This document shows, one piece after another, positions 6,678 through 55,200 of a DNA stretch of 64,000 bases. Under the pieces are notes generated by a model. That model was given only the letters and a program-made list of their open reading frames with translations. It searched no databases and was not told the DNA's origin. The position numbers were made by a program, and so were the translations under genes. Each line of letters opens with the position of its first letter. Position 1 is the stretch's first letter. Origin of the DNA: Magnolia sinica (lineage: Eukaryota; Streptophyta; Magnoliopsida; Magnoliales; Magnoliaceae); NCBI RefSeq assembly GCF_029962835.1, contig NC_080577.1, positions 23,232,501 to 23,296,500 on the forward strand, in the 5' to 3' direction.

Positions 6678-7205
6678 CTTATCGGAAATGGATTGGCTAC
6701 TCCCCCTCCCACCGGCCGTCGGTGCACTGTGAGCCCTACCATGATGTATTTATTTCATCCATTCCGTTCATCCATTTTTAAAGATCATTTTAGCACTTGA
6801 TAGAAAAAATTAGAGGTATATAGATCTCATCTGGTCCACACCACATGAAAACAATAGCGATTGGATATCCACCATTAAAATCCTCCTAAGGGTCACTGTA
6901 CTTTTTATTTGATATCCAATATGTTGATTAGGTCATACAGGCCCAGATGAAGGTAAAAAATAAAAATCAGCTTGATCCAAAGCTTTTATGGCCCCCAAAA
7001 TGTTTTTAATGGTAGACACTCATTCAACACTGTTTCCTGTAATGTGGACCACTTGAGATTGAGATATACCTCATTTTTTGTCTCATACTTTAAAATGATC
7101 TATTTTTATAGATAGACAACATGGATGAAACAAATACACCATGGTGGGGTCCACATAGCACCGACCACCAGCCATGGTGTCAGGGGGAGTAGCCGATCCG
7201 TTTCC
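6678..7205. mobile_element. Fold-back MULE-type MITE with 9-bp direct repeat
   Basis: The termini match as inverted repeats: the left begins GGAAATGGATTGGCTACTCC (6684) and the right, reverse-complemented, begins GGAAACGGATCGGCTACTCC, both followed by CCCT. Inside, the two halves are long imperfect inverted repeats around a spacer of about 130 bp. TACCTTATC occurs at 6669-6677 and exactly at 7206-7214. The left copy is offset 6 bp from the inverted repeat, and the 9 bases immediately adjacent (ATCCTTATC) match at 7 of 9. A 9-bp duplication is typical of Mutator-like elements. Confidence 0.75.
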
Positions 7206-7222
7206 TACCTTATCAGGATTCA

Positions 7223-7735
7223 GGACGCGGATTTCCTGCTTAAGCCTTTCGCACAAAGTTCCTTGGCAAGGATGCTGGGTGGGGTCCAACGAGATGTTTT
7301 TGAGAAATCCACCCTGTCCATCCGTTTTGCGAGCTCATTTTAGGATGTTCGACAAAAAAATGAAGTGCATCCAATACTTAAGTGGATCACACGAGAGGAA
7401 ACAATGGGAATTCAGTGAGAACCGTTGAAGCATTCTTATGGCGTAAAGTTTTATATCGGGTTATGTTTTCAGTGTTTTCACTTCATCCCACTGACAATGA
7501 CCTTATAAACGGTTTGGATAGCATATAAACATCCAGGTGGAGCCCAGGAAGGTAACGGTACAAATTTCTTTTACCAATTTTCCATCTCGTGTGAGTTTTG
7601 TATTCATCTCATTTTTGGTGGAACATCCTAAAATGAGCTCCCAAAACGGATGGACGGATTGGATTTCTCAAATACATTGGAGTGGGCCCCACCCAGCGTC
7701 CTTGCGCAGGAACTTGCTGCGAAAGGCTATTTCTC
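7223..7735. mobile_element. Fold-back MITE, GCCTTTCGCA subfamily
   Basis: The left block GCCTTTCGCA (7244-7253) followed by CAAAGTTCCT and GATGCTGGGTGGGG is mirrored on the right by CCCCACCCAGCGTCCTTG and TGCGAAAGGC (7718-7727). The inner arms carry the shared 'tccatccgttttgcgagctc'-type stem. The left flank reads GGACGCGGATT, the family-wide terminus. No clear target duplication was found. Confidence 0.7.
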
Positions 7736-8090
7736 AAAATGGGAATATTAAAATTTATTGGACGCAACGGCACAAACTCGAGGACGCTGATTTCACGGAA
7801 AGTTCAGCGCTGGGAAGTTAGGTCGTTAGGTTGAAGAATTCTTTTCAATTCATCCGTTTTGTAAGCTAACTTTTTTGAGAACACTTGATAAAAAATGAGT
7901 TGTGTCCAAGACTCAAGTGGGCCAAACGAAGAAATAATAAGGATTGGACAACCACCATTCAAATATTCATGTGGCCACAAAAGTTATATATCAAGCTAAG
8001 TTCCACGTGGAAATGACCTTATAAACCGTTTAGATGGTGTATAAATATAAAGGTGGAGCCCAACGGTGAGCATTTCTTTCAGGTAATGGT
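7736..8090 (+). repeat. Truncated fold-back element
   Basis: A left arm and spacer are recognisable ('caagactcaagtgggccaaa', 'ttcatgtggccacaaaagtt', 'accttataaaccgtttagat'), but the right arm is missing. The next fold-back element starts where it ends. Confidence 0.5.
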
Positions 8091-8097
8091 GGGTGGT

Positions 8098-8507
8098 GCC
8101 CTGGCCGTGGGTCCACCTTGATGCATGTGTTATCTATTGATGCTGTCCATCAGTATCCTCAGCTCAATACAGGACATGGTCTAAAAAAAATAAAACAAAT
8201 CCAAATCTCAAGTGGACCATACAACAATAAACGGTGGTCATTCAACACTAGGACCACCTAATGTTTATATACAACATAACGTGAAGTTGATAAATTCACA
8301 CGGACCTGCATGAAGGGAGAACACAAATTCCAAAACTTTTGCAGCTTCAGAGGAGTTTTCAACGTTGGGCATTCAATTCCGACTGTATGTTGGCTTGAGA
8401 TATAGATTTACTTCATTTTTGGATCCATGCTCTAAAATAAGCAGAAAAATCTGACTGACTGCGTAGATATACGACACATACATCAAGGTGGGCCCCATGG
8501 TCAGGGC
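8098..8507. mobile_element. Fold-back MITE, GCCCTGRCC subfamily
   Basis: The left end GCCCTGGCCGTGGGTCCACC is mirrored by the right end ending CCCCATGGTCAGGGC. The stems continue inward through 'ttgatgcatgtgt' and 'acacatacatcaa'. The outermost terminal repeat seen on the right (AGCGGGTAACACCTAATCCG) has only a partial partner on the left. Confidence 0.65.
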
Positions 8508-8754
8508 AACGTTTCAGCGGGTAACACCTAATCCGCTCTCCACGGTGTGTTGCGTATGCCCATCATCCTCTATTGTTTAAAGCCCTTTGGCCGAAATGGC
8601 TAACCATTTCAAAATTTAAAAGTTCATTTAAGATAATCTTAACTTTTGATTATGAAAACCAATCTAATTGTTGGATAATTAAATATTTTAAATTTTTAGC
8701 TTGTGGTACATTAAACTGGTAACCATTATTTTTGGACAGTTTAATTCATTTTTT

Positions 8755-9469: not shown

Positions 9470-9516
9470 TGCATTGTCACTAGCAAATGGGGGGCCGGCC
9501 TTTCTCATCCGGTGCG

Positions 9517-9930
9517 GCTACTCCCGGAAATCGGAAAGCCTACAGAGTTACTCAGAATGTTTTTTTTAATCGTATCAAGTAAACTCTGTTGGCCCCACTG
9601 TGAATGTATGTGGTTTATCCACACCGTCCATCTAATTTTAAATGTCATTCTAGCGGTTGAAACCAAAATAAGAGGGTATATGAAGCTGAAGTGGACCACA
9701 CCATGGGAAACAGTGGGAACAATGTTTTCCACCGTTGAAACGTTTCTAGGTCCCACAGTGATGTTATTTGTCATCTAACCTATTTATAAGATTGTACAGA
9801 CATAATAAAGGGAAAACCCATGTACGAGCTTGATCCAAAACTTCCGTGCCCCCAGAATCTTTTCAACAATTCACTGTATCCTATGGTGTGGTCCACTTGA
9901 TCTTTGTAAATGTTTTTTTTTTTCTCTCCT
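9517..9930. repeat. Fold-back element, right end lost
   Basis: The left end resembles the 23999-24536 copy ('gagttactcagaatg', 'agtaaactctgttggcccca'). The right arm stops near 'gtggtccacttgatctttg', where a T/C-rich junction leads into the LTR region. Confidence 0.55.
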
Positions 9931-9984
9931 TTCTCTAACTATAAAATTGTACGGTAAAATCGATTGAGTGTGTTGAACTTTTTT

Positions 9985-10660
9985 TTCTGGCAGTTCCTGA
10001 AAGAGCTCGAGGAAAGCACAAGTGTCATTGTACGGACAGAAATAGCATGCAAAGGGCCTTGAGAGATATTTTGAACGCTTTTAAGAAAATACAGCTGGTA
10101 CTGAGCTCGATGATACACGTCATTTAATTATGAGACACGGCCGAGAAGTTCAAAAAGTGAAAAGTGGTCAAGTAGAAACAAATGGTTAAACTAACATAGA
10201 GACATAAGGATTTAAAAGACTAATGTAGCAATGATTCAACTACCGCAACCATTAAAATAAATAAAGAATTACCTGAAAGGTGCAGAAAAAATTTATAAAT
10301 AGCAAGAAATTTAGCAAAGCAAATAATCTCATGCCAATCAAACAAACCAATTAAATTATCTTTCAATTATCATGCAATTTATCTTTTCTTATCATAACTT
10401 AATTATTTCCTAGGAGTAGTCGTAATTGATTAGCTGTAATTTCAATCTAGGCTCATATGCTAGACTTTTTATCTCAATACAAGTAGTTCTTCATTCAGAA
10501 AGGCTCATTGGAAGGTAAAATTGAATTTATTTTTAGAGAAAGAACCCCACCATTTGAATATCACCTGATTACTCTATAAAACAATTTGCGAGTGGCTCAA
10601 TAGGTGACCAATCTGCACAAATTTTGATTATATATGGTCGTGGTCATTGTATCTGCATAT
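9985..10660 (+). mobile_element. LTR (first of a chain), fossil gag-only retroelement
   Basis: It aligns by eye with the LTR at 12015-12770 through shared blocks: 'gaaatagcatgc', 'cttgagagatattt', 'aataatctcatgcca', 'tatctttcaattatc', 'tagctgtaatttca' and 'gtcattgtatctg'. A primer-binding-like stretch (TTGGCACTTGGGGTC) follows. The extreme 5' end is not clear. The element is an old, decayed copy. Confidence 0.6.
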
Positions 10661-12014
10661 ATTGGCACTTGGGGTCAAGTTGTTCGGTTGGAATCTAGTT
10701 GCACGATCAGTTTTGGCATGCCCGCATGTACACACGTGACTAAAACATCTAAACCGAAAACGTGTTAAACAATTTTTGTCATGCTTAATAGGATAAAATT
10801 ATAAATATTTATTTTGTGCCGGTCATGTAAAATTGAATAATTTTTGACACGCCTAGTGGGACAAAATACTACTTGGCTATTAAAAATATTTACTTTGCAC
10901 TAGCCATACAAAAAAATGAATAATTTTTGGGACGCCCGATGGGACCAAATACTTGTTGTCATAAAAAGCCAATATATTTAGGTATCTTTGTATTGTAAAA
11001 CATGAGTCAAAGAGGTGGTCATTGTATTTCTACAACTCATAAACCTCCCCTAGTTAATGAGGAGTTACAGGCGAAACCAACACCTGAGTTGTTGTCGAAC
11101 CCAATACCTAGTTCTTTAAATTCGAATAGGACATCCTCATCTCGTACTGACCCTTTAGTAATAATTTCTGTCGGGTTATGTGAAACGCGAATGGGCATTC
11201 GACATATTGTTGAACAGTTAACGAGCTCAGGTCGATTAATGTCAAAACCAGGTCAAAACCTTTAGTGGATGGATGGTTATTCAGGTCGAGAGCATGAATA
11301 GGATGATGACCATTATTGTTAAACGAATGTCTGATGTACATCAACAAACTATGCCTTAGCCCATGATACATCAACAAATTGTGCCTTAGTAGACTGTCTC
11401 CAAACCTATTGCTAAAGCAAGTTTTGTCAAAAAGTTGGCACCAGCGCAACCAATACCCGTACCACTTATTTTATGACAGAACACGCCTCCTACTCTAATA
11501 CGAGAGGTGTGGATGATTGCTCCCCTCAAGCATCAGGTACCTGTGGGGCAACCCTTACCCAGAAATCAACCATACAATGAGGAACAATGCCTCGTGGGCC
11601 TAGAGCCACTTCCAATGGCTGAACTTCGTAATTTTGACCACGATCAACCTCGCAATTTGGATTTCAACCAAGTATTACAACTGGTTTAAGAGGTGGTAAG
11701 CCAAGTTCTCGGCCATAATACTACCCTGGTCTACCATAAGCCTTATCTGAAATGGATTGACCAATAATCTCCATTCTTGTGACTGACTTTGATGTTTTTT
11801 GACTACGATGACCAAGTTCGACCAAGATGGCTGAATTTTATGTTTTTTGACCAAGATGGTTGAGTTGGACCAAAATGGCCGACTTTGATATTTTCGACCA
11901 AGATGGTCAAATTCGATGTTTTTACCTGATCGGTCAGTCATATTTATTACACTGTATAAGGAGCCATCATCACTTTAACCTTTTTACCCTAAAGTGAAGC
12001 GATGTGGGGAGCAA
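10661..12014 (+). mobile_element. Internal region of gag-only LTR fossil, copy A
   Basis: It runs from the primer-binding-like site to a purine-rich end (GTGGGGAGCAA) just before the next LTR. It carries a gag-like N-terminal segment from about 11002 (protein start MSQRGGH) and a proline/asparagine-rich segment around 11500-11690 (RNQPYNEEQC). No protease, reverse transcriptase or integrase region is present. It is closely related to copy B at 12771-14037, about 2.08 kb downstream. Ty3-type assignment is by similarity of copy C to Ty3 gag and is moderate. It is broken. Confidence 0.6.
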
Positions 12015-12770
12015 TGTTGTACCCTATTTTTGACAGTTTCTGAAATAACCAATGAAGAAAGCACACATGTTTTTGCATGGGAAAGAAATAGCATGCGGAA
12101 GATCTTCAGAGACATTTGGAGCACTTTTCACAGAAGTACAATTGGCATTGAGGTGGATGATACATGTCATCTGGTGACAATTCACGATCGAAAAGTCCAA
12201 GGGGAGCGGAAAAGAGCAATTAGAGGGACATGAAGAGATAAAAGGATTCGAAAGACTAATGTGACAATGATTCAGCTGCCATAATTGTTGAAATAAAGAA
12301 AGAAACATGTGGAGGGTGCGGAAGAAATTAATAAATAGTAAAAAATTCAGTAAAGTAAATTATCTCATGCCATTCAAACAAACCAATCAAATTATCTTTC
12401 AATTATCCTGCAATTTATCTATTCTTGTCATAGCTTACTTCTTTCCTAGGAGCGGTTATAATTCATTAGCTGTAATTTCAGTCTATGCTTGTACATTGGA
12501 CTTTTATCTTGATATAAGCAATTCTTCATTTAGAAAGGCTTCTCATAGTTATGGCTCGACTGATTGTGAGTATTTCCTTTTCGTTTGATGACAACCAGTT
12601 AATAGGAATGTCCTTTCATGCAGAAGGTAAAACTGAACTCATTTTCGGAGGAAGAACCCTACCCTTGAAATATTGCCTGATTATTCTATAAAAAATTGAG
12701 AGTGGCTAAATAGGCGGCCAATATGCATAAATCTCAGTCATATAAGGTTGCAGTCATTGTATTCGCCTAT
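12015..12770 (+). mobile_element. LTR shared between gag copies A and B
   Basis: It begins TGTTGTACCC directly after the purine-rich GTGGGGAGCAA and ends near 'gtattcgcctata' just before TTGGCGCTTAGGGTC. It is about 756 bp. Its 5' boundary is the best-defined one in the chain. Confidence 0.65.
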
Positions 12771-14037
12771 ATTGGCGCTTAGGGTCAAGTTATTAAGTTG
12801 GGATTGAGATGCATAGTCAGTTCTAGTATGCTTGTACGCACCACATGTGACAAAAACATTCAAACCGAAAAAAATGTGTAGAATAAAGTGGATTAAAAAA
12901 CATAAATTAGAGTAGATCCCACAGAGTTTACTTAGTGGAACAAAATACTACTTGGCTATTAAAAATATTTACTTTGCACTGGCCATGCAAAAAAATGAAT
13001 AATTTTTGAGATGCCTGATGGGACCAAATACTTGGTTTTCATAAAAAGCCAATATATTTAGGTATCTTTGTGTTGTAAAACATGAGTCAAAGAGGTGGTC
13101 ATTGTACTTCTACAAGTCATGAACCTCCCCTGGTTAATGAGGAGTTACAGGTGAAACCAACACCTGAATTGTTGTCGAACCCAATACCTATTTCTTCAAA
13201 TTCGAATAGGACATCCTTATCTCGTACTGACCTTTTAGTAATAATTTCTGTTAGGTTATGTGAAACTCGAATGGGCATTCGACATATTGTTGAACAGTTA
13301 CGAGCTCAGGTCGAGTAATCTCAAAACCAGGTCAAAACCTTTAGCGAATGGATGGTTATTCAGGTCGAGAGCTTGAATAGGATGATGACCATTATTGTTA
13401 AACGAATGCCTAGTATACATCAACAAACTATGCCTTAGCCCATGATACATCAACAAATTGTGCCTCAGCAGACTGTCTCGAAACCTATTGCTAAAGCACG
13501 CCTCCTACTCTAATACTGGAGGTGTGGATGATTGCTCCCCCCATTGAAATCAGATGGTTTGAGTGGAAGAACATGAATTTCAATCTCGAAGTTAAGCATC
13601 AGGTACCTGTGGGGCAACCCTTACCCAGAAATCAACCATATAATGAGGAACAATGCCTCATCGGCCTAGAGCCACTTCCAATGGCCAAACTTCGTCATTT
13701 TGACCACGATCAACCTCGCAATTTGGATTTCGACCAAGTATTACAACTGGTCTAAGAGGTGGCAAGCCAAGTTCTCGGCCATACTACTACCCCGGTCTAC
13801 CATAAGCCTTATCTGGAATAGATTGACCGATAATCTCCATTCCCGTGATTGACTTTGATGTTTTTTGACCAAGATGACGAAGTTCAACCAAGATGGCTGA
13901 ATTATATATTTTTTGACCAGCTCTAAGTTTGGGGTGTCCACTTTGATAGATTCATGTAGGTAGTGGACAAGCTTCGAAAAAGAGAAACCCTTACTACTCG
14001 GCATAGGGATAGGGCGTGCACTCTAATCAGTGAGCAA
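12771..14037 (+). mobile_element. Internal region of gag-only LTR fossil, copy B
   Basis: This is a near copy of region A: the same MSQRGGH start near 13082 and the same RNQPYNEEQC segment near 13628-13660, with internal length differences. It ends in 'gtgagcaa' before another LTR start. It has only gag-like sequence and is broken. Confidence 0.6.
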
Positions 14038-14870
14038 TGTTGTACTCTAATTAGGTGAACGGCCAATCAATAAAGACAAAGTAGAAACGGGACCCTTCCA
14101 ATTTGGTCTTAGGGACCCTACGAGCACTTTTCATAGAAGTACAATTGGCACTTTTTACGAAGTTATAGTTGGCATAAATCCAATACTACACATCATTGGA
14201 TGGTCAACGAGATTTATCTAAAATTTAACGAGTGGAGAGAAAAATAGGGACGAGCAGTCCAAGATATGATAGGCGACCAAGAGACACAGAACCTAACAAA
14301 CAGAAGATGAGTAATCACAAAAAGGAAACATAATAAAAGAAAGATCTAAAGAAACGCTTTTCGACTACAATAACCACTAGAGTAATGATAGAAATATTTA
14401 AAAAAGTAAGCTGTGCAAAATAAATCTATCAATAGGAGAACAAATCTACAGAGTAAACACTCAACAATCATCTACAAATCCAATCCAATATAAAACAAAA
14501 CAAATCTATCTTTTATGTTAGCTTATCCCGGCAATAATCCGGTAGCAGTAATTCTTAGTTATAGTTTTTAGTTGTAATCCAAATGTACGTGTATGTTGGA
14601 TTTGTCTTTTATCTAATATCACATAGTTTTTTCAAAAGACACATTCATGCAATTGCTCTTAGTGACCGATTATGAGTTTTTTCTTTTGTTTGATTGCACT
14701 AGTATTGTAAAAAGTCCTTTCTTGTGAAAGACAAAACGTAACTTACCTTCGAAAGATGAACCTCACCCTCTAATTATCGCTTGATCGTTATAAAATTCTA
14801 CAAGTGGCTGAGTAAACAACCGATTTTCTCAGAATCTAGTCATATATGTTCATATTGGACGTATCTACTT
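14038..14870 (+). mobile_element. LTR, second subfamily
   Basis: It begins TGTTGTACTC and is about 833 bp long. It pairs with the LTR at 16446-17289 through 'gtcaacgagatttatctaaa' versus 'agtcgatttatctaaa', 'aagatatgataggcgacc', and 'gatcgttataaaattcta'. It is followed by 'cagcgcttggggtcaaagtt', the primer-binding-like site. Confidence 0.65.
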
Positions 14871-16445
14871 GTTTCAGCGCTTGGGGTCAAAGTTGATCAG
14901 ATTGGATTGAGTTGCTTTATCGATTTTGGCACACCCACACACATTACACATGAAAGAAAACAAATCAGGCACCAATAATTTTGGCATACCTGATGAGACT
15001 AAAAGCTACTTAGCTATCATCAATATTCATTTTGTATGGGCCGTTCAAAAAGAAGAATTTTGGCATGCTCGGTGGGACTCATTTACGAAGTATACTTACT
15101 GGTGCAGTAATGTCTTGGAATCATGAGCTGAAGGGGTGGTCATAATGCTTCAATAGCCACCACTAATGTTGTTGTAGCCAATGAGCCTCCTACTCAAGAG
15201 GAAGAGTTATAAGTTCAACAGGTGCCTAAGTAAGTAAATCAACCACCTAGTCCAGTGCCTGTTCCACCAAATCCGGATAAACCATCAACATCCCGAGTTG
15301 AACTTTTTAAAATTATGTCAGGCGGAATAGTTAATGTACAAAGGAAAATTCAGTACATTGTAGAATTGTTGCGAGTTCAAGTTAAGCAGTCACGGGCTTA
15401 GATTGGAGCTTTTAATAAGTGGATGGTCGGCCATACCAAGAGCATGAATCAGTTAGTGACTTTATTTTCCGTAAGAGCATATATTGCACATCGTAACAGA
15501 TCGACACTAGTTCTGATGGGAATCTGATACCTATACCAACAGTCCAGTCAGTGCCGCATGCATTTCCTTTACAATGAACTATATCACATGTTCCTGTCCT
15601 TGTTCTAGTGCATGACGTACGAAATTCACCACCACCTGTAAATTTCAGACGTCTTGAATGTGTTCCTGTCCAGGACGTCGGAATTCACCACCTCTATTAG
15701 ATTTCAAGCATGCTTAACATGAGAATAGAAACTTAATCTATGAAACTAGGAATCAAGGAATACTTGGGAGTGCAACCTCTGTCCAGGAATCAACCTTATA
15801 ATGAGGAGCACTATCACCTTAAATTACCTCTAGTTGTTACACAATAATATTAGGATCATAATTAAATTGTTCATGAAGTAGTAGGCCAAGTTCTCAGTTG
15901 AAGTATTACTCCAATTTATTACAAGCCTTATCCTAACTAAATCGACCGGCAATATCCATTGCCAAGGAATTATCAATCATACTTTATTCTATTTACATAT
16001 GATACCGGTCAATTGACCATAGAACATATAGGTCATTTTATTATACAGTGTGATGAATTGGCCAACATTGATAACAATAAATTGCAATTATCCAGCTATT
16101 CTTTACTTAGTAGCCTTTACTTAGTATTGTAATATGTTGTCAAATTCCATACAAACCCGGTAGGAGATGGAAAAAAAATTTCATGCTTAGTTATTCTATA
16201 AAGACATAAATTTTTATGGTTGATCTTGCCTATTTTCAGTAATTTCTAGGAGAATGGGTCGAAAATTATATTGTTTGGTTTAAGCGGCAGAAATATCTTT
16301 TGGTTTAACCTCAGTCAGTTACGATGAATGGGGAGACAATACGTAGACCAATAGTATATTGCATCAATTACGTTGGGCAACAACACAACGTCGTGATTAC
16401 CTTTTTTCTAAAGGTAAAGTGACATGGGGGGGGGGGGGGGGGCAA
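14871..16445 (+). mobile_element. Internal region of gag-only LTR fossil, copy C (Ty3-type gag)
   Basis: The region 15780-16200 reads as a decayed Ty3-type retrotransposon gag: a YKPYP segment, then TIEHIGHFIIQCDELANIDN, which resembles the conserved centre of plant Ty3 gag proteins. An upstream N-terminal segment is related to copies A and B. A purine tract including a long G-run at 16426-16442 precedes the 3' LTR. No pol region exists between the LTRs. The whole element is about 3.25 kb and is broken. Confidence 0.65.
16426..16442. repeat. Poly-G run at polypurine-tract position
   Basis: A G tract of about 17 bases sits immediately before an LTR start, where a polypurine tract is expected. 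It may be an expanded tract or an assembly error. Confidence 0.8.
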
Positions 16446-17289
16446 TGTTCTAATCTATTTCTGGCCATTTTGGTAAAAGTTAATAAGAAGGTGACATTTG
16501 GCACTACACAAAAGATGGGAGATGAAAGAAAAATTCTTCAAGATACTTGAAACACTTTTTACCAAATTATAGCTGGTATAAATCCAATGCTATACGTCAT
16601 TAGATGGTCGATGAATTAACACAGTCGATTTATCTAAAATTTAACGAGCAAACGAAAAAACACGGTCGAACAGTCCAAGATATAGTAGGCGACCGAGAGA
16701 CCAAAAACCTAGCCGACAAAAGAGGAATTGTCACAAAAGGGAAACATAACAAAAGAAAGATATACAGAAAGGCTTTTCGACTACAGTAATCGTTTGGGTA
16801 ATGATGAAAATTTCTAAAAGAATAAGCTGTGCAGCAGAAATCTATAAATAAGAGAGCAAATGTACAGAGCAAATACCCAATAATCATCTACAAATCCAAT
16901 CCAATCCAATATAAAACAAATCTATCTTTTATCTCGGCTTATCATACGAGTACAATAATCTCGTGGCGGTAATTCTTAGATATAGTTTTTAGTTGTAATC
17001 TAAATATGCGTGTTGTGTTTATCTTTTATCTAATATCACGTAGTTCTTTCAAGAGACGCATTCTTGTAGTCGCTTCTAATGATTGATTGTGAATTTTTTC
17101 TTTGTTTGATTGCATTAGGATTTTGAAAAGCCTTTTATTGTGAAAGACAAAATGTAACCCACATTTGGAGAAAGAACTCCGCCTTATGAGTATCACTTGA
17201 TCGTTATAAAATTCTATGAGTGGTTGATTAAGTAACCGATCTTCTTAGAATATGGTCGTATACGTTTATATTAGATGTATCTGCTTATT
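16446..17289 (+). mobile_element. LTR, second subfamily, 3' copy
   Basis: It begins TGTTCTAATC after the G-rich tract and runs about 844 bp to 'gatgtatctgctta', followed by 'gatgcttggggttaaagttt'. It is recognisably the partner of 14038-14870 but visibly diverged, so the insertion is old. Confidence 0.65.
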
Positions 17290-17856
17290 TTGATGCTTGG
17301 GGTTAAAGTTTATCAGTTTGGATCGAGCCACTTTATTGCAATACACACTACATATGAAAGAAAACAAACCAAGCACCAACACATGCATAAGATTTACCTC
17401 GTCAATCAGGTTCACTACTTAATTTTTAGCATTGACTCTCAACATCGCCCAAAATTCAGATGGGCCTCACCAGAAGAAAAGATATAAACACATGCGTAAA
17501 ACCTAATGTGGCACACCCAAGTTTCAGAACAGCTTGATTTAGAAATGTCCATTAATTCTATTAATGCACGTAAGATGAATGAGTCGGATGGGATATATAA
17601 ACCATAGTGCCCTTTTCAACTAATGATGAACGTCTCATCCAACTCTTCCCGACGGTGTGGCCTACTTAATGGTTGAACCAGCTTGATTTTTGAGGTTCAT
17701 GGCTAACATGAGACAAAACACCAGATGGACGATGTGGATCCTGTTAGGTTAGTAGGCACGACCCCTTATGCCTATGTTTCATAGCCATAAAACAAGTGTA
17801 TTTGTCTACACATGCTTTTGAGGCTTTTAATAGGATAAGTTTTCCTAAAGCAGATT
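17290..17856. other. Intergenic DNA, no gene
   Basis: No coding signal. The first part continues retroelement-like sequence after the LTR. The remainder (17500-17850) shows fragments of the intergenic repeat vocabulary. Confidence 0.5.
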
Positions 17857-18255
17857 GCGTACTGAGTAACGTAGTACACGCGTACTGAGTAAACCCTGTG
17901 GGGCCTACCGTCATTCATGCATTTTATTCGGTCCGTCCATCTATTTTACCAGATGATTTAAGGATTTTAGCCCAAAAAAGAAAGATATCCAAAGTTCAAG
18001 TAGACCACACCACGGGAAACATTGTAAATTGAACGTCTACCGTTGAAAATTTATTGGAGGCCACGGAAGCTTTAGATCAAGAAAATATTTGTGTTTTCCC
18101 TTCATCCATGTCTGTATGGTCTTATGAACAGGTTGGATTATGGGCCTTAGGAAGGTTTCAATAGTGGAAATCAATAGTTCCACTGTTTTGTGTGGTATGG
18201 TCCACTTGAGCTTTTGATATGCTTAAATTTTGAGTTCAACCATTAAAATGATCTA
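17857..18255. repeat. Fold-back element cut by an LTR fossil
   Basis: The left terminus 'gcagattgcgtactgagtaa' and both stems are present, but the element stops at 'ttaaaatgatct' (18253), where an inverted LTR fragment begins. It belongs to the same subfamily as 23999-24536, 34138-34597 and 41924-42448. Confidence 0.6.
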
Positions 18256-18261
18256 GTGTGG

Positions 18262-19019
18262 TGCATGCACGCATGCCAAAATTGATTGTACGACTCGATT
18301 TCAACTGAACAATTTGACCCTAACTGACAATATAAGCAAATACGATGACTGCGACGGTATATGACTGTGATATGAGCAGATTGGTCACCTATTCAACCAC
18401 TCACAAATTATTTTAATGAATAATAAGGCGATAGTCGGAAGGTGTGATTCTTCAACTAATCGATTACAACTAAAAGATTACTGCTACCTCTAAGATAGAG
18501 GTAAAGTTTAAAATATTATGCTAAGATAAGATAAGATAAATTTGACTGGGTTTTTTGGATTGGTATGAGACCATTTGTTTGGTGGATTTCCTCTATTATT
18601 TATAGACTTATCTACTACACAAATACTCTATATCTGTTTTTCCTCTTTAATTCAACCATTATGGTAGTTGAATTGTTACTACAACAGTCTTTCAGATCCT
18701 TCTGTCTCTTTGTATTCTTCTAACCGTTCTACTTCTTTTGACCGCTTTTCATCTTTTGGACTCCTCGGCTATGCCCCGATCTAATGTCTCTTTGTATTTT
18801 TCTAACCATTGTACTTCTCTTGACCACTTTCCATCTTTTGGACTTCTCAGCCGCGCCCCATCATCAAATGATGTGTACTGCCAACTCACACTAGTTGTGC
18901 TTTCGTAAAAAGTGTTCTAAATATTTTTAAAGATTTTTTTGCATGCTATATTTTTTATGTGCAGCAACACGTGTTATTCCCGGAATGGTTAATCCAGGAA
19001 TGACCAAAATATGGTACAA
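18262..19019 (-). mobile_element. LTR fragment, minus strand
   Basis: On the minus strand it begins near TTGTACCATATTTTGG and carries the blocks seen in the plus-strand LTRs (agcatgc, the 'acacatcatttgatg' region, 'gagtggttgaataggtgacc'). It then runs through a primer-binding-like 'cagttagggtcaaattgttc'. It contains an internal duplication of about 120 bp ('ctctttgtattcttctaacc' and 'ctctttgtatttttctaacc'). It is a broken fossil. Confidence 0.6.
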
Positions 19020-19292
19020 TGGAAACTAAGTAAGACAAACTACAATCAATAAGAACTAGTGAGACCCACGGTTGATATGCATAGACTTTAGCCATTGGAC
19101 CAGGGATAATCTTTTAAGGATCTAAACCGTTTATATGATGGGTCTCATCTTGGAAGGGGGAGGCTAAAATGTTAAACTCCTATATAAAAGTAATATTTTT
19201 CAATGAACATTTGTTGAATTTTGATGGTTAACGATTTTTCGCTCTGATTGTCCATTAGATGTTCGAAGATTGTTCATTTCTTATCATATAAT

Positions 19293-22790: not shown

Positions 22791-22872
22791 AACATTCAAA
22801 TCAAGCACAGTACCAATGTCGCACTTACTGAAAGAAATAATTATTGCTCCACGTTTGCAATGCAATTACAAT

Positions 22873-24536: not shown

Positions 24537-24594
24537 AGTCAAAACTAATTATGGGAGTCCCATACCAACTTTTGCCTAGGCGGTCGTGTATCTG

Positions 24595-39301: not shown

Positions 39302-39397
39302 GGCAGTTAAGGATTTGAACGTCCTCTTTTGCTTTTTCCCGCTCTTTTTAACGGCCACAGGGAATTTGACGCAAACACCCTACCGTCTTACCGGGAC

Positions 39398-41923: not shown

Positions 41924-42448
41924 GGAAATCGGATTGGGTACTGAGTTACTCAGTCAGCTCCTAACGTACTGAGTAAACTCAGTTGGGCCCACCTTGAATG
42001 TATGTGGTCTATTCTCGACGTCTATCTGTTTTTATATCTAATTTAAGGGGTTGAGCCGAAAATGAAACACATCCAAAGATCAAGTGGATCATACCACTGG
42101 AAACAGTGGGGATAATGATTTCCACTGTTGAAACCCTTCTAGGCCCCATGGTAATGTTTATTTGTCATCCAACCTTTGCATAAAATCATACATGCATGGA
42201 TGAAGGGAAAACACAAATATAAGTTTGATCAAAAACTTATGTGCCCCCAATAATTTTTCAACGGTAGACGTTCAGTTCAACTGTTTCCTATGGTGTGGTC
42301 CATTTGAAAATTGGATATGATTCATTTTTAAGCTCAAGCATAAATTTATCTAGTAAAACGGATTGACAAAGCAGATAAAATACATAAATCATGGTGGACC
42401 TCATAGAGTTTACTCAGTACTAGTGAGTTAGTAGGCAATCCGCATCCC
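41924..42448. mobile_element. Fold-back MITE, GGATTGSGTACTGAG subfamily
   Basis: The left GGAAATCGGATTGGGTACTG and the right end (reverse complement GGGATGCGGATTGCCTACTA) are inverted repeats, and both stems are complete. AAGGGG is present near both ends, but a G-run blurs the register, so I do not claim a clean 9-bp duplication. Confidence 0.7.
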
Positions 42449-42449
42449 A

Positions 42450-42884
42450 AGGGGACGCGGATTGCATACTAACACTATGGTGGCCAGTTGCTAGTAAATA
42501 GTGCAATGTGGGAACCACTGTAATGTATGTGTTTTATCCATGTCATCCATTCATTTTTCCAACTCATTTTAGGGCATGAGCCTAAAATTGAGGCAGATTC
42601 AAATCTCAATGGGACCACATTACAAGAGACAGTGGTGTAAAAACTTCCTGCTAGCCACAAAATTTTGGGATCAAGCTGAAATATGTGTTTTCCGATGTGA
42701 CCTTATCAACATGTGATGGCAAGTAGACGTTACAGTGGGCCATAGGAAGTTTTTAATTGTGAAAGTTAAGTCACCACTGTGTTTTACGTGGTGTGATTCA
42801 TTTGAGATTTGAATATGCCTCGTTTGGGTTCATGTCCTAAAATGAGATGGTAAAATGGATGGACAGCTGGATGTACCATATACC
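42450..42884. mobile_element. Fold-back element abutting the previous one, right end lost
   Basis: It starts GGGGACGCGGATTGCATACT only a few bases after the preceding element. Both stems are present up to 'aaaatggatggacagctgga', where a hAT-like element is inserted at 42885. Confidence 0.6.
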
Positions 42885-43762
42885 TTGGGTTGTACACTAA
42901 CTGGGCTAGCTCGGTTAGCTCGCTCGACTCAGACTCGAAAAAGCTTGATTTGACTCGGTTCAAAGCTGAGTTCGAGCCGAGTCGAGCTGATTTTTTGAAC
43001 TTGAAAATGAGTTCGAGTAGGCCCCAACTCGACTCGACTCGGATCGAATCCAACTTGATCTCTAGATTAACTGCAGCTTCTGCTGTCTTTGGTTGGAAAT
43101 AAAGAGTTACACATCTTTGATATATAAACAACTTTAGTTTGCTTTTCCTAAACCGTGGTATTGTTTCAGTCTTGTTTTGGACACCAGACCAAGGGCCAAT
43201 GGCATGTATTTTATTTCCATTGAACAAGTCTTCTTGTTTATTGGTTTGATGCTCCATTTGTTTTTTGGAAGCGGATTAGCTGGTGTACCTCATTTGAACT
43301 CGGATCGAACCAGTTTGGTGACTCAATTACTTTGCCATTGATGTTGCTCACCAACTGTTTGATAAAATGACTCAACCAAATGTGACCGGTGGCAATGAAG
43401 GTTTGGCCGGTGGTAAGCAAGGTATGTACATTAAACAAGTACCTTTTTTCTCTTTGTTTTATTTGTTTTTTATTTTTTATGTTACCTAAAATGTGTTTGA
43501 TAAAATACCTGTAGAAACATTGCCTTTGTTTGTAAAACAGTGGTGTTTTGAAGTTGCAGTTCAGGTGTTTATAGAAATGCTTCAATGGCAACTCGGATCG
43601 ATCTTGGCTCGAACTTAGCCCAAGCTACTGATGGAACCGAGCCGAGCTGGCCAATCAAGCTTGAGGACCAAGTTGAGCTGAGTTCGAGTTAAGGTCAGCC
43701 AGTGTTCGAACCGAGTCGAGCTAAGGACAACTCGACTCAGTTCGACTTGATGTACACCCCTA
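42885..43762. mobile_element. Non-autonomous hAT-like element, perfect 8-bp duplication
   Basis: CATATACC flanks it exactly at 42877-42884 and 43763-43770. The ends read TTGGGTTGTACAC on the left and, reverse-complemented, TAGGGGTGTACATC on the right. The interior is rich in CGACTCG/GAGTCGAG words, as in the other members. Short ORFs inside match no transposase. Inside it at 43267-43293 lies a stray terminus of the fold-back family. Confidence 0.85.
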
Positions 43763-43789
43763 CATATACCACTCATCTGGATGGTGTGT

Positions 43790-44346
43790 TGACCTCACTA
43801 GGTTCTATAGTCCCATCATGAGGTATGTGTTATATTCAAACTGTCCGTTCATTTCGTAAGCTTGTTATGAGGCTTAAGCTAAAAAATAAGATGATTCAAA
43901 GATTAAGTGGACCACACTGAAAAAAGCAGTGGGGACTAAACGTCTACCATTGAAACCCTTTTGGGTCTCATAGAAATTTTGGATCAATATTATAATTTTT
44001 TTTCCTATTCATCCAGGTATGCATGACATTATGAACAGATTGGAGGGAAATTAAAACGTTACGGCAGGCCTGCGAATGTTTTAACAATGAAAATCATCAT
44101 CTCCTTCTATTTGTGGTGGTCCACTCGGGCTTTTGATATAACTCATTTTTGGGCTCAAGCCCTATAATGATATTGCCAAATGCATGAACAGTTTAGATAT
44201 AATAAATACATCATTGTGGAGCTCATATAACTTTAATCTCCTTTGAACCGTCTGTACAACTTGGAACTCAAGGAGCGCCAGCGCTTGTCTTGGCACGACA
44301 CGTACCCACACCAGGTGGTATGTGGTACACCAGCCAATCCGCTTCC
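43790..44346. repeat. Fold-back element with right terminus
   Basis: The arms 'tatagtcccatcatgaggta' and 'aatacatcattgtggagctc' pair, and the right end is 'gtacaccagccaatccgctt' then CC. A left partner for that terminus is not at its expected place but inside the neighbouring hAT element (43267). Confidence 0.55.
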
Positions 44347-46029: not shown

Positions 46030-47545
46030 CCCCTAGCATCTAACATCCATCATATGGGGCCAACCTTTGATGTGACCCATTCATTGTATGAGCCTCACAT
46101 TTGATGTGGGTCGTCCATCATATGTGGCCCACCTTGGATTTGGGCCATTTATTATTATGGCCCAACATTTAATGTGCACCATTCATTATGTGGGGTCCAC
46201 TTTTAATGTTTCCATCCATCAAGTGGGGCCCACCTTCAATATCTACCACCCATCCTATGGAGCCCACCTTTAATGTAGATCATCCATCATGTGGGCCCCA
46301 CCTTTGACGTGAGTCATCCATCATGCAGGGCTAGACTTGGATATGAGCCACTCATTATTAGGGTTGAACTTTGATGTTGATTGTCCATCATATAGGGCTC
46401 GCCTTAATGTGTGTTGTCCATCATGCAGGGCCTGCCTTGGATATGGGTCACTAGGGCTGAAAGTCGGGCAGGTTCGTGCTCAACTCTAACCCAACCCAAG
46501 GTTCTTGTTCCTCAACCCAACCCAACCCAACCCAACCCCAGGTTGGGAATTCTCAACCCAAGCAGGTTCGGTTCGGTTCGGTTGGTCGGGTGGATACATG
46601 CTAATATTTTAATAACTGCATTAATTTATTATATTTTAATACATATCTTATTTTTTATATTTATGATTTTATTAATTATATATGTAGTTATTTATCGTAA
46701 AAAACTTCATTTATTCTAAACAAACAAGCTAAAATATCGGACAACTACTCATTTAAAAGTCGTGTTGTGTAGCACACAATCTATTTGGGAGAGAGAAATC
46801 CAATATTTCTTGTTAGCTTGAGTCATCAAAAATGATGTGGACCAATGAGACTCGACAACATCAGAATTTCCTATGTCTTCAACACATACGATCCACACTA
46901 AATTATAATTTATAAGTAACTTATATATTGAACAGGTTCAGGTTGGGTCGGGCAATCCAAGACCTCAACCCGAACCTGACCCAAGATTTATCGGGTTGGT
47001 GTTTGTATAGCCCATGCCTGAGATCGGACTCGATACATCTTGCCCAATCCCAACCTAATGTCGGGTCGGTCACGGGTTGGTCGGGTTCAACCAGCCCAAC
47101 TTTCAGCCCTATGGGTCACTCATCATTAGGGTTGACCTTTGATGTAGACCTTCCAACGTGTGGGGCCCACCATTATTAATTGTCCATCATGTGGAGCCCA
47201 CCTTTGATGTGGACTATCCATCATGTAGGCCCTACCTTCAATGTGGGTTGCCCATCATGCAGGGCTCGCCTTGGACATGTCATTTAGGGGCCGACCTTAG
47301 GTGTGGACTGTCCATCATGTGGGGCCACCTCAATATGGTCATCCATCAAGTGGGGTCCAACTTTAATGTCCACTACCCATCATGTGGAGCTTGCCTTTGA
47401 TGTGGACCGTCCATCATGTAGGCCCGACCTTTGAAGTGGGTCGTCCATCATACCAGCTCATTTTGGATGTTGCCCAACCTTTGATGTGGACCATCCATAT
47501 GTGGGCCTCCACCACATGAGGCCTCCTTTGATATGGACTGTGAGA
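46030..47545. repeat. Degenerate minisatellite, about 34-bp unit
   Basis: Units of the type CATCATGTGGGGCCCACC then TTTGATGTGGACCATC recur throughout on both sides of the hAT insertion at 46452-47111. Roughly 25 diverged units remain by eye. Short open frames here are repeat artefacts. Confidence 0.85.
46452..47111. mobile_element. Non-autonomous hAT-like element, perfect 8-bp duplication
   Basis: TGGGTCAC flanks it exactly at 46444-46451 and 47112-47119. The termini TAGGGCTGAAAGTCGGGC and (reverse complement) TAGGGCTGAAAGTTGGGC are inverted repeats and resemble the start of maize Ac/Ds ends (CAGGG-TGAAA). The interior is rich in AACCCAACCC and GGGTTGGGTCGG words. No transposase is encoded. 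Confidence 0.88.
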
Positions 47546-49090: not shown

Positions 49091-50268
49091 CGCTTGACTC
49101 GTTGCAGTGGACTAATGCTTGCCAATAAACACCATATGGCAAAATTAGTTCAGGAAATGTTTGTGTTTAACTGGTTTTGATCTTTTAGATGGTAAAAGCT
49201 CAGGAATGGAAATGACAAAAATTTTGCTGATTCTCACATAACTCGATCTATTCCTACTTTATTTATTTATCATTATTATTTTTTATTTTTTCCATTCTAC
49301 TTAATTGATGCAATGGGGGTGACAGTCAATTTCTAATTTCTAAAAATCACTTCAATATTTCTTCTTAGTCTTCTTCATCTTTTCCTAAAGAAAAAGGCAT
49401 TTATTTCAATTCGTCCAAAAAATGATTGTTTTGTGTATCTTCTCAAGAATGCAGTGTTGGACGTTTAATCAATTATATGAATTATATTTTTTAATATGGA
49501 GCTTAAGACGTAGTTTTGCCACTACATTCACCCCTGACTCGGGGGAGCTGTGACTCAACTGAGACTAGAACGAGTCATTGAGTCTGAAAACCATGTTTGG
49601 TGGTAGGCCGCCTTCCGCTGTCAGATTCAACCCTCCCCCTCTTTTCCAATGCTTTGCTTATAAAGAAATATTTTGATACTCTGGCCCAGTGTGATGGATG
49701 ATAGGCACTCACTTAGGAATTACTGAAAGATTATATACATAGCATATCTTATTTCAAATTAAGCCGTCCAAATTATATGTGCCAGTTTATATCTATCATG
49801 GACCAAAAGCTATGCGTATTTGATTATTTGACTGTCAAAGTAACATGCACTTAATGGACGGTTAAAATGAAAAATATTCTATGGTCTTATTTCAATAAAC
49901 AAATGTGCACAAATCAAAGGTCAGGATTATTCACCCAATCTAATTTTTGGATTGTAACTTAAAAAAACTATAGGTTCCACTGTGTATCCGGTTTTAACTT
50001 GAAATTAATATTTGCAACATTTATTATTTCTAAGCGCTGGTGCATCAAGCCTCATAGTCAGCCAGAGTGTCAAATAGCTCCCCTTGCTTTTTAAAAAGAT
50101 TTATAGAAGGTGAGGAAAATTCGCCTCAGTTTCATTTCCCACTAAAAAGTTGATATCACGGGCATGTGGGCCATAATGGTCAGTCAAACCTTGGAAAGTG
50201 GCACCTTTTGGTCAATCCTCTTTCGTATTAGTGATGATGGGACCCATCTTGCATCCTAGGTTAGAAGC

Positions 50269-50748
50269 GGGAGCGGATGGCCTGTGACCTCGAGCACATA
50301 GATATCTCTGTGCCCGGAACTGCATGGGGCCTATAGAAATATACATTACCAATCCACTCTGCTCATCTGTTTTGAAAGACAGGATTCTAGAGATTAGGTT
50401 GATTGAAAGCTCATATGGGCTATACCACAAGAAGCAGTGGGGATTGGACGCTGGCACAGAAAGTTTTGTACCAGGATGATATTTGTTTCTACAATTTATC
50501 AGAGTGGTAGTAATTCTATAAACGGTTTGATGGCATATAAACTCCGGGAAGGTTTCAGTTGTAGGTGTTGTTGTTCTCACTGTTTCGTTGGCTTGGCCCA
50601 CGTTAGTTTTGAGTCTGCCTTATGTTTAGAATCCTGTCCTATCATGATCTTGCAAAACAGATGGACGGAGTGGATTTCTCATGGACATGTTTGTGGACCC
50701 CACATAGCCCCGAGCATAGAGATCTATGTGCCCGGGCAATCCGCTCCC
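50269..50748. mobile_element. Fold-back MITE inside duplication copy 1
   Basis: The left GGGAGCGGATGGCC then GAGCACATAGATATCTCTG mirrors the right CATAGAGATCTATGTGCC then GGCAATCCGCTCCC. Both stems are present. Its duplicate lies at 53728-54241, so it was inserted before the segment duplicated. Confidence 0.72.
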
Positions 50749-50764
50749 TTAGCCTCACCCAAGA

Positions 50765-51450
50765 TGGTGTGGCCACTACCATGGGACCCACCTTGATGTA
50801 TGTATTTATATCACATTGACCTTTAATTTTTTTCAAATTATTTTAGGTCATTATCTCATAAATAAAATAGATCTAATTGCCGGGTGAACTATACAATATG
50901 AAAGAGTGATGATTGAAGGACCTTAATGTTTTTTTATGGTAAGGTTCACCTAATAATTGGATTTAGTTATTTTTTAGATTATAGCTTAAAATGATCTGAA
51001 AAAACAGATGGACAGTGTAATACAAAATACATACATTAAGGTAAGCTTCTTAGTAAGGGTTGCACCATCTTAGGTAAAGCCCTGCCCATGATCTCTCCTT
51101 GATGTACCTATTGTCTAATCAAGTTGTCCAACCATTTTGACAGCTCATTCTATGGCAAAAATCTTGAAAATAGAGCAACCCAACTCTCAAGTGGACCACA
51201 CCATAGGAAACAACGATGATTGAATGCCCGCCATAAAATAAACAATTTTAAAGCTCATCGTAATGCTTACTGCAATGTTTATTTTCCAACTGACCTTTTG
51301 ATAAGGTCACATGGTCAGGATCAAGGTAAAAAACAAATATCAGTTTAATTCAAAACTATTTTAGCTCATAATAAGTTTTTAATGGTCAATCACAACTGCC
51401 TTTTGTGGTCTTATTCACTTAAGATTTAAATATACTTATTATGAGTGCAC
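50765..51450. repeat. Two decayed fold-back copies in duplication copy 1
   Basis: A copy opening 'gggacccaccttgatgtatg' (about 50785) and closing near 51065, and a second opening 'cttgatgtacctattgtcta' (about 51099), carry recognisable arms. Both recur in copy 2 (54275-54600 and 54600-54960). Confidence 0.55.
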
Positions 51451-52053
51451 TAATTTGTATACATTATTTGTCAATCATGCCAGTAAATGCATCATGCAAT
51501 CAATTAAGCCTTTAAAAGTTGAAGACCAAAAACACAAAATTACAAATAGCATCGAATACCAAAAAACATGTAAATAAAGTGTTATAGTAATCCTAACTTT
51601 TGAGTTCTCTAAATGATCTTTGCCTCATTAGAAAAACCTTACGGGATATTCCTTACCCTTGTGAGCCTTATTAAACCCTGATAATACAGGTTATAGAAAT
51701 CACAAGCAGTTGAAAATCAAACCGTCTACAGCATGAGAAAAGAATGCAGCAACAGAAAAGGCCATGTATTAGACAGCCAGGATCTTTCAAACTATAAGAT
51801 TTTTTGGACATCCACCATCAACAGTGGGCCTATCAATTCAACAGTTAGATCCCCAAACTATAGGCCCCACCAGCACCAACTGGGCGCATTGCTCAGATGT
51901 CTCACACAACTTGCCAGATGTTTAGCACGTGTGGTGCGTGTGGGGTCGATCATTAGGGAAGCCTCTTTCGCAGCAATGGACAATGGTGAAAAAGAAAATG
52001 CCTTTGTTGACCAGAGTAAACGGGGGCCATTTAAATCTATGTACGGTCATCCT

Positions 52054-52178
52054 CTTGCCTTTGGTCCACGTCACCACTCACTAAAAAAATAAAAATAATA
52101 AAAAACAGCTTCGGACGCCAAACCATTAGGGTATCAGGAATTCTCTGTTGACCTAATAACAGAGGATCCAGACTCTTT

Positions 52179-52230
<52 letters not shown>
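52054..52230. repeat. Junction between duplication copies with (AT)n
   Basis: About 125 bp of unshared sequence ends in an AT repeat (about 52180-52230). Copy 1 is also preceded by a shorter AT repeat (about 47602-47616), so the breakpoint may lie in the microsatellite. Confidence 0.7.
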
Positions 52231-52233
<3 letters not shown>

Positions 52234-55200
52234 TTATTAAGATAAGTAGATTTTAGCATGTAAGATATTTTTACATTAATACTTAGTAAACTAACTTAAG
52301 TAAAAGAAGTTAATTACTTATAATAACTTATTTGACATAGCTAAGTTTGGTTTAAAAACAATTATGAGCAACTTTTTTATTTAAAAGTATCACTTCAACT
52401 TAATAGGTTGAAACCAAGATAAGCTACTTGAGGCATAAGTAACTTATCTTAAGTAATTTACTATCTAAATGCCCCCTTAAACAACAGGAGCTTATTCTAA
52501 TAATGTGGTTTCTGATGACCACCTTAGATTTTGATTTTGGTAACATGAATGGATGCTCGACTTGTTGCAATGGACTCATGCTTGCTAATAAACAGCATAT
52601 GGCAAAATTAGTTCAGGAAATGTTTGTGTTTAACTAGTTTTGATCTTTTAGATGGTAAAAGCTTAGGAATAGAAATGACAAAAATTTTGCTGATGCTCAC
52701 ATAACCCGATCTATTCCTACTTTATTTATTTATCATTATTATTTTTTATTTTTTACATTCTACTTAATTGATGCAATGGGGGTGACAGTCAATTTCTAAT
52801 TTCTAAAAATCACTTCAATATTTTTTCTTAGTCTTCTTCTTCTATTCCAAAAGAAAAGGCATTTATTTCAATTTGTCCCAAAAAAAGAAAAAATTTGTTT
52901 TGTGTATCTTCTCAAGAATGCAGTGTTGGACGCTTAATCAATTATATGAAATATATTTTTTAATATGGAGCTTAAGACGGAGTTTTGCTACTACATTCAC
53001 CCCCCGACTCAGGGGAGTTGTGACTCAACTGGGAATAGAACGAATCATGGTCTCAAAACCATGTTGTAATAGGCCGCCTTCCGCTGTTAGATTCAACCCA
53101 ACCCTTTTTTTCAACTCTTTGCTAATAAAGAAATATTTTGATACTCCGGCCCAGTGTGATGGATGATAGGCACTCACTTAGGAATTACTTAAAGATTATA
53201 TACATGGCACATCTTATTTCAAATTAAGTCGACCAAATTATATGTGCCAGTTTATATATATCACGGACCAAAAATTATGCTTATTTGATTATTTGACTGT
53301 AAAATTAACATGCACTTAATGGACGGTTAAAATGAAAAATATTCTGTGGTCTTATTTCAAGAAACAAATGTGCACAAATCAAAGGTCAGGATTGTTCACC
53401 CAATCTAATTTTTGGACTGTAACTTAAAAAAATATAGGTTCCACGATGTATCCGGTTTTAACTTGAAATTAATATTTGCAACATTGATCATTTCTAAGCG
53501 CTGGTGCATCAAGCCTCATAGTCAGTCAGAGTGTCAAATAGCTCCCCTTGCTTTTTAAAAAGATGAAGCTGAGGAAAATTCGCCTCAGTTTCATTCCCCA
53601 CCAAAACGTAGATATCACGGGCATGTGGGCCATAGTGGTCAGTCAAACCTTGGAAAGTGGCGCCTTTTGGTCAATCCTCTTTCATATTAGTGATGATGGG
53701 ACCCATCATGCATCCAAGGTTAGAAGGGGGAGCGGACTGCCTGTGACCCCGAGCACATAGATATCTTTGTGCCCGGAGTTGCATGGGGCCTATAGAGATA
53801 TACATAACAAATCCACTCCGCTCATCTGTTTTGAAAGACTAGGATAAGACAGGATTCTAGAGATTAGGTTGATCGAAAACTCATGTGGGCTATACCACAA
53901 GAAACACTTGGGATTGAACGCTGGCAGTGACAGAAAGTTTTGTATCAGGATGATATTTGTTTCTACAATTTATCTGAGTGGCAGTAATTCTATAAATGGT
54001 TTGATGGCATATAAACAGCATGGTCAGCTCCAGGAAGGTTTCGATTGTAGGTGTTGTTGTTCTTACTGTTTCGTTGGCATGGCCAACATCAGTTTTGAGT
54101 CTGCTTTATGTTTAGAATCCTGTCCCATTATGATCTTGCAAAAGAGATGGACAGAGTGGATTCGTCACGGACATCTTTGTGGACCGCACGCAGCCCTGAA
54201 CATAGAGATCTATGTGCCCCGGTCGGAGGCAATCCGCTCCCCTAGCCTCACCCAAGATGGTGTGGCCACTACCATGGGACCCACCTTGATGTATGTATTT
54301 ATATCACATTGACCATTAATTTTTTCAAATTATTTTAGGTCATTATCCTATAAATAAAATGGATCTAATTGTCAGGTGAACTATACCATATGAAATAGTG
54401 ATGGTTGAATGACCTACCATTAAAATTTTCTTATGACACACCTTAATGCTTTTTTATGGTAAGGTTCACCTAATAATTGGGTTTACTTATTTTTTAGATA
54501 ATAGCTTAAAATGATCTGAAAAAGTAGATGGACAGCGTGGTTATAAAATACATACATTAAGGTAGGCCCTACGGTGAGGGTTGCACCATCTTAGGTGAAG
54601 CCCTGCCCATGACCTCACCTTGATGTACCTATTGTCTATTCAAGTTGTCCAACCATTTTGACAGCTCATTCTATGGCAAAAATCTTGAAAATGGAGCAAC
54701 CCAACTCTCAAGTGGACCACACCATAGGAAACAAGGATGATTGAATGCCCGCCATAAAAAAAACAATTTTAAAGCCCATCATAATGCTTACTGCACTGTT
54801 TATTTTCTATCTAACCTGTTGATAAGGTCACATGGTCCAAGTTCAAGGTAAAAAACAAATATCAGTTTAATTCAAAACTATTTTAGCTCATGATAAGCTT
54901 TTAATGGTCAATCACAACTGCTTTTTGTGATGCTATCCTCTCAAGATATAAATATACTTATTGTTAGTGCACTAATTTGTATACATTATTTGTCAATCAT
55001 GTCAGTAAATGCATCGTGCAATTAATTAAGCCTTTAAAAGTTAAAGACTAAAAACACAAAATTACATATAGCATCGAATACCAAAAAAACATGTAAATAA
55101 AGTGTCTTAATAATCCTAACTTTGAGTTCTGTAAATGATCTTTGCCTCATTAGAAAAACCTTACGTGATATTCCTTAGCCTTGTGAGCCTTATTAAACCC

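Follow-up and report, generated by a model that had tools for sequence, protein, structure and literature searches.

Short foldback transposons, likely Mutator-like, in a 64-kb stretch of Magnolia sinica, with arms that look to have been re-matched as subfamilies arose

We analyzed a 64,000-base stretch of Magnolia sinica DNA (NCBI RefSeq assembly GCF_029962835.1, contig NC_080577.1, positions 23,232,501 to 23,296,500; hereafter the window) and found one family of short hairpin transposons, old and scattered through it. The elements are miniature inverted-repeat transposable elements (MITEs) of foldback shape and are likely Mutator-like elements (MULEs). What is new in this family is its pattern of arm evolution, in which the two arms look to have been re-matched when subfamilies arose. 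A profile of the family (nhmmer), seeded with the copy at 23999–24536 and iterated four rounds over the window, gave 99 strand-wise matches that merged into 45 segments and 14,739 of the 64,000 bases (23%); within 6678–54241 the family accounts for 12,154 of 47,564 bases. It is present on both strands, and each full-length copy was matched on both along its whole length, in the manner of a palindrome, while the window reversed but not complemented gave 0 profile matches. A first-pass annotation had described more than fifteen hairpins as dominating the region. The hairpins were recovered at the places that it listed (by inverted-repeat search, self-BLAST, and arm alignment), and the count is borne out by 18 aligned long copies, among them M50 and N53, which represent a single insertion. 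The large share also stands, but at 23% coverage "dominates" is too strong.

The 18 oriented long copies (433–548 bp each) yielded a consensus of 521 bp in which two arms (3–219 and 293–519, 79% alike) enclose a loop of about 73 bp. The arms, of about 220 bp each, make up about 444 of the 521 bp, so the element is almost wholly palindromic. Single long copies are 68–84% identical to the consensus, the two halves within a copy are 70–81% alike, and the closest pair outside a 3-kb duplication described below is 80.5% alike. The ends carry a 13-bp terminus, GGAAGCGGATTG[C/G], whose commonest base at each of positions 1–13 is found in 12–21 of the 22 termini of 11 elements. Agreement with the consensus, measured by region in 14 copies, runs at 0.81–0.83 for the termini, 0.82 for the loop, and 0.75–0.82 for the arms, and drops to 0.69 for the sub-terminal stretches. 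The string GCGGATTGC occurs exactly six times in the window, against 0.03 expected from 30 dinucleotide shuffles. The RNA fold of 24594–25121, the only copy folded, has an energy of −252 kcal/mol (z −21), and none of 100 shuffles was as good. Copies show an excess of C-to-T over T-to-C changes in all contexts (CG 0.198, CHG 0.137, CHH 0.145, versus 0.068), which could be a trace of methylation; a majority consensus biases these figures, and we conclude nothing from them. The principal copies, with their target-site duplications (TSDs), are as follows.

6684–7205, plus strand: B1, foldback MITE; TSD TACCTTATC 9/9 with the left CTTATC tandem set aside, otherwise 7/9
7223–7735, minus strand: B2, own sub-terminal type, mirrored across the arms (score 44); right terminus unrecognizable; no TSD
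8079–8545, plus strand: E8, near full length (profile and alignment)
9526–9976, plus strand: E9, core arms cluster with the E1 subfamily (tree)
17844–18276, minus strand: D17, E1 subfamily; one end unrecognizable
22441–22793, no strand assigned: variant copy without the model's loop region (about model positions 181–320)
23761–23998, minus strand: left piece of the degraded host copy of E1 and E2; other pieces at 24546–24593 and from 25131
23999–24536, plus strand: E1; TSD AGTCAAAAC 9/9
24594–25121, plus strand: E2; TSD CGTGTATCT 9/9, within a 13-bp perfect repeat
26034–26388, no strand assigned: second variant copy without the loop region
33244–33714, plus strand: F33, whose left end exceeds the right in length; TSD not listed
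33716–33779, plus strand: left piece of the host copy of G33, interrupted in its loop by G33; right piece from 34652
33780–34642, plus strand: G33, holding nested G34; TSD TTATTTGCC 9/9; empty site agrees with the family consensus
34138–34597, minus strand: G34, a member of the E1 subfamily lying within G33; TSD ACTAGTCAC/ACTAGCCAC 8/9
35738–36284, plus strand: I35; TSD CATTCTCAG/CATTCTCAT 8/9 (offset 1)
39390–39875, minus strand: J39o, near full length; TSD looked for, none found
39911–40393, minus strand: J39, E2 subfamily; TSD CATCTAATC 9/9
41925–42447, plus strand: K41, E1 subfamily; TSD 7/9 at offset 1
42453–42938, minus strand: K42, adjoining K41; one end unrecognizable
43783–44252, minus strand: L43 core copy; GGAAGCGGATT(A/G)G termini lie on either side, one at 43267 and the other at 44346; no TSD
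50269–50748, minus strand: M50, the counterpart of N53 in a 3-kb segmental duplication; without TSD
53728–54241, minus strand: N53; no TSD

The two variant copies at 22441–22793 and 26034–26388 are related to each other (73%), and they possibly represent a loop-less subfamily.

For 11 elements we took the ends from the register of the 13-bp terminus, then compared the flanks, allowing one base of slack per side. The flanks matched at all nine positions in four elements (E1, E2, G33, and J39), at eight of nine in two (G34 and I35), and at seven of nine in two, with no duplication in the remaining three; only I35 and K41 needed the slack. Among 200,000 random pairs, a 9/9 match arose at a rate of 1.2 × 10⁻⁴ and a match of at least 8/9 at 1.7 × 10⁻³, so that the binomial P values are 7 × 10⁻¹⁴ and 1 × 10⁻¹⁴, respectively. 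Because the 3-kb duplication made M50 and N53 out of a single insertion, the set holds 10 independent cases. At exact abutment E1, E2, G33, and J39 match over the full 9-mer and mismatch as 8-mers and 10-mers, 8-mers show 2–8 mismatches of 8 in all 11 elements, and when one base of slack is allowed, 8-mers match in full solely in the four elements that have a full 9-mer. In B1 the outcome depends on a 6-bp left tandem (CTTATC, 6678–6683): setting it aside gives 9/9, and keeping it gives 7/9. By a published MULE criterion, which in the cited passage tolerates up to two mismatches in nine (PMC3903597), 8 of the 11 elements carry a duplication. None of the 11 elements has TA repeats as its 15-bp flanks.

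Four of these duplications had been called perfect in the first-pass annotation, correctly, and the two that it called near-perfect, at 34138–34597 and 35737–36284, both match at eight of nine. For the element that it placed at 24595–25122 the duplication holds but the boundary does not, as it is ambiguous within a 13-bp perfect repeat and the terminus gives 24594–25121. The duplications of 6684–7205 (B1) and 41925–42447 (K41) are additions to that list. Over the eight TSD-matched elements the flanks agree at 66 of 72 sites, a pairwise difference of about 8%; this would mean that much of the divergence between copies predates insertion, although the figure is biased because the elements were selected for having a TSD match.

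Several copies lie inside older ones. The span 33780–34642, read earlier as a single hairpin, is an element (G33) with another (34138–34597) nested inside it, and is itself inserted in the loop of a further copy. When the flanks of G33 were joined with one TTATTTGCC, they aligned unbroken to the consensus, and the profile match crossed the junction with 64 and 109 bases on either side. Removal of E1 from its degraded host copy likewise gave a profile match that extended 237 bases to one side of the junction and 32 to the other; with both E1 and E2 removed the junction was crossed by 286 and 61 bases and the score rose from 79 to 85, the host's left piece alone scoring 69.5. In a control of 20 random joins, no match extended more than 10 bases beyond the junction on the short side. 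The joined flanks of G34, B1, I35, and J39, and of E2 alone, gave no junction-spanning profile match. E1, E2, and G33 are thus insertions into older copies of their own family. The elements are also clustered: among 25 listed element spans, 8 of the 24 gaps are shorter than 100 bp versus 1.1 expected (0/20000), a count into which one gap enters twice because of the 3-kb tandem segmental duplication (49092–52056 and 52555–55578, 90.7% identity) that copied one MITE (M50/N53).

The family has the traits of a MITE, namely a length of about 520 bp that leaves no room for a transposase, a presence in 45 segments, inverted ends, and TSDs. It also has the hallmarks of a MULE, with duplications matching at seven or more of nine positions in 8 of 11 elements and long terminal inverted repeats (TIRs; the arms 79% alike), and the foldback MULE MITE trait of arms that form most of the element and fold into a hairpin. 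MULE TIRs can exceed 300 bp, and MULE TSDs are 7–12 bp, as given in one source passage (PMC10741241); in the portion cited of a survey of 207 plant genomes, 41.5% of MITEs are Mutator (PMC12550479). The Mutator-like affinity proposed from the sequence alone is supported as far as the 9-bp duplications at terminus-set ends and the long inverted repeats are concerned; no MULE transposase bearing the GGAAGCGGATTGC terminus was seen among the 30 window open reading frames (ORFs) scanned.

The design itself is less novel than had been suggested. The first-pass annotation knew of no standard description for this hairpin group; MuTAnT of Medicago and FARE are described foldback MULE MITEs. In the passages cited here, MuTAnT of Medicago truncatula is a 292-bp element with 144-bp TIRs, for which FARE1 of Arabidopsis is cited as alike, and it shares with the present family a short, high-copy, non-autonomous form, hairpin-folding inverted repeats, and MULE class (PMC4486113). 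By the same description MuTAnT differs in that it sits in TA microsatellites and the 144-bp TIRs of its type element are almost identical, whereas here the flanks are not (TA)n, the halves are 70–81% alike, and a common core and loop go with several sub-terminal types. FARE shares the foldback arms and the MULE assignment but, compared again by description, is said to carry a MULE-domain transposase, of which none was seen here (PMC4486113, PMC3169594). Tm1 of the root-knot nematode (Mutator/foldback) has foldback-like inverted repeats, mostly 9-bp duplications, and MITE-like members; as the cited text presents it, however, its TIRs consist largely of a variable number of 13–15 bp units, the two TIRs of an element average 93% identity, and a transposase-bearing member is known (PMC3169594). 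No description of the present family appeared among the literature matches listed, and its sequence strings were absent from paper texts, a weak test in that sequences sit in supplements. We regard the family as a newly seen member of the foldback MULE MITEs that may already sit in repeat libraries. A 1161-base family query gave no match against plasmids. A 16-base core pattern was found in nine stretches of viral contigs, and four weak profile matches there (E 0.0014–0.0037) lay around the core pattern itself and were taken as chance.

Large as it is, the family is nothing unusual among repeats. Its arms, however, bear on the open question of how inverted foldback ends stay alike and yet change together, and the family could settle this because the loop marks orientation, so that left and right arms can be distinguished wherever the loop is kept. 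We compared 17 elements with both core arms (arm length 123–173 bp), in all of which the loop scores favor the assigned orientation (weakly in A4, 34 versus 24). The identity of an element's own left and right arms ranges from 0.52 to 0.83 and averages 0.671, versus 0.600 over all cross pairs, a value that 0 of 20,000 permutations reached; the signal persists after removal of 3 or 7 elements, and a separate run with 12 elements gave 0.786 for own arms versus 0.72–0.74. Between elements the means are 0.594 for left-right pairs, 0.611 for left arms, and 0.600 for right arms. In the arm tree, the arms of the E1 subfamily (E1, K41, G34, D17, and E9) sort by side, with support of 70 for the left and 78 for the right, and those of E2 and J39 fall together in a single clade (95) within which the right arms group together (91). 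The two arms are sisters in B1, B2, F33, I35, N53, A4, and L43 (supports 65–98, none printed for B1). Monophyly of all left versus all right arms was rejected by the approximately unbiased (AU) test in two runs (p = 0.0006 and 0.0003), and even with orientations picked to favor it (p = 0.002). A single arm split at the family root would group left arms across subfamilies; such grouping is clear only within them, and so the arms would have been made alike later. We infer from these comparisons that arms were homogenized after the subfamilies separated, in several lineages, and before the spread of two multi-copy subfamilies. An animal element gives a parallel: in the cited account of Tetris (Drosophila virilis), repeats of the same element group in two of three complete elements, which was read as possible homogenization by unequal crossing over or gene conversion, the TIRs of Tetris differing in containing internal repeats of about 220 bp (PMC4079207).

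The sub-terminal DNA points the same way. The subfamilies share the 13-bp terminus, the core, and the loop, and they differ in sub-terminal sequence. At positions 14–58 of 11 elements we distinguished eight sub-terminal types (at a link threshold of 34, our choice), six of which are mirrored in both arms. The own left-right score averages 33.7 versus 13.8 for cross pairs (0/50000), and mirroring exceeds the 99% level for random 45-mers (a score of 22) in 8 of 11 elements, spanning six of the eight types. Because sub-termini are mirrored in most elements, change has usually come to both arms at once, which fits a transfer of sequence from one arm to the other, such as cruciform gene conversion or hairpin fill-in would bring about.

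We consider it very probable that the joint explanation is one of non-autonomous, Mutator-type foldback MITEs in which occasional re-matching of the arms founded subfamilies. A MULE transposase encoded elsewhere would bind both ends, and the element would be excised and then inserted with a 9-bp stagger. While the element is mobile, its two arms would occasionally be made alike again, possibly through gene conversion within a cruciform or through hairpin fill-in with one arm as template for the other, and a re-matched copy would found a new subfamily and spread by ordinary transposition. More specifically, and tentatively, as a proposal whose chances we put a little short of even, an arm with newly acquired sub-terminal DNA may be copied onto the other (re-palindromization), with the place and orientation of the loop kept, after which two-ended MITE transposition proceeds and the arms drift. 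If this is true, both sub-terminal regions of foldback MITEs change in one step, by hairpin repair.

Other readings of the arms have to be weighed. Gene conversion between the arms could have taken place after insertion, copy by copy, rather than at the birth of subfamilies, and it would also yield sister arms such as those of B1, B2, F33, I35, N53, A4, and L43. We think this unlikely. The five E1-subfamily copies have own arms of 0.65–0.68 identity and same-side partners (among the three best) of 0.68–0.80, so that conversion after insertion has had little effect there, and the right arms of E2 and J39 cluster together. The pattern could instead be an artefact of alignment and of short, saturated, unevenly evolving arms, as the 0.52–0.83 spread of own-arm identity, the arm lengths, and the mixed supports might suggest; the permutation result nevertheless survives the dropping of elements, and the sub-terminal mirror test draws on bases other than those of the core alignment, which makes an artefact distinctly improbable in our judgment.

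The elements could also have been moved by another superfamily, such as hAT or Merlin, with the hairpin shape reached independently. Foldback shape by itself leaves the superfamily open, since Galileo, in the passages cited, has a P-type transposase (PMC3169594, PMC4079207), and no transposase was seen in the scanned ORFs. This reading has little probability given that E1, E2, G33, and J39 match in full as 9-mers and not as 8- or 10-mers. Duplications of hAT elements are 8 bp and those of Merlin elements 8–9 bp, and we know of no Merlin element in plants. A satellite-like series or a series of segmental duplications, in place of mobile elements, is scarcely credible: the excess of short gaps and the element copied by the 3-kb tandem duplication would agree with it, but flanks differ from copy to copy, site-specific duplications are found in 8 of 11 elements (at least 7/9), and in three cases removal of the element lets the flanks rejoin.

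Several observations weigh against the explanation that we favor. The flanks were already known when the ends were fixed, so that the procedure was rule-based and not blind, and three of the 11 elements (43267–44346, or L43out; M50; and N53) have no TSD. No MULE domain was found in the 30 ORFs scanned (10 of the 34 with at least 110 aa, and 20 of the 91 listed with 75–109 aa). With regard to the arms, the tree model (TPM3+G4) was our choice, the arms are short, many tree supports are below 70, and in K42, E8, and J39o the two arms do not pair as sisters. Just 6 of 17 elements have at least one arm whose best match is its own partner, a small same-side signal persists across the whole family (0.011; 7 of 5000 reach it), and sub-terminal mirroring falls below 22 in F33 (20), G33 (18), and G34 (17). 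All of these data come from one window and a small, clustered sample.

The remainder of the window is plant-like, with an ammonium transporter ORF at 30907–32586 (Pfam PF00909, E = 1.3 × 10⁻¹³³). A PPR gene with an E motif lies at 37763–39163 on the minus strand, its PPR part and E motif being contiguous same-frame ORFs split by a stop; it is either a pseudogene or the product of a sequence error. A match to U2 spliceosomal RNA at 41462–41589 (score 49.8 versus an Rfam gathering threshold of 46, over 128 bases of the 192-position model) may be a pseudogene, and a copia-type gag-like fragment, under the Pfam cut-off, is located at 28829–29239 on the minus strand. Repetitive DNA of other kinds includes two arrays of units of about 34 bp (CATCCATCATGTGGGGCCCACC-like) at 46044–46325 and 47135–47439, which are similar to each other, and a long imperfect hairpin at 18791–19516 (363-column alignment, 63%) that gives no family-profile match and lies next to 82-bp tandem units, which it partly overlaps. 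Further direct duplications, of 74–93% identity, occupy 9971–13919 and 14149–17379.

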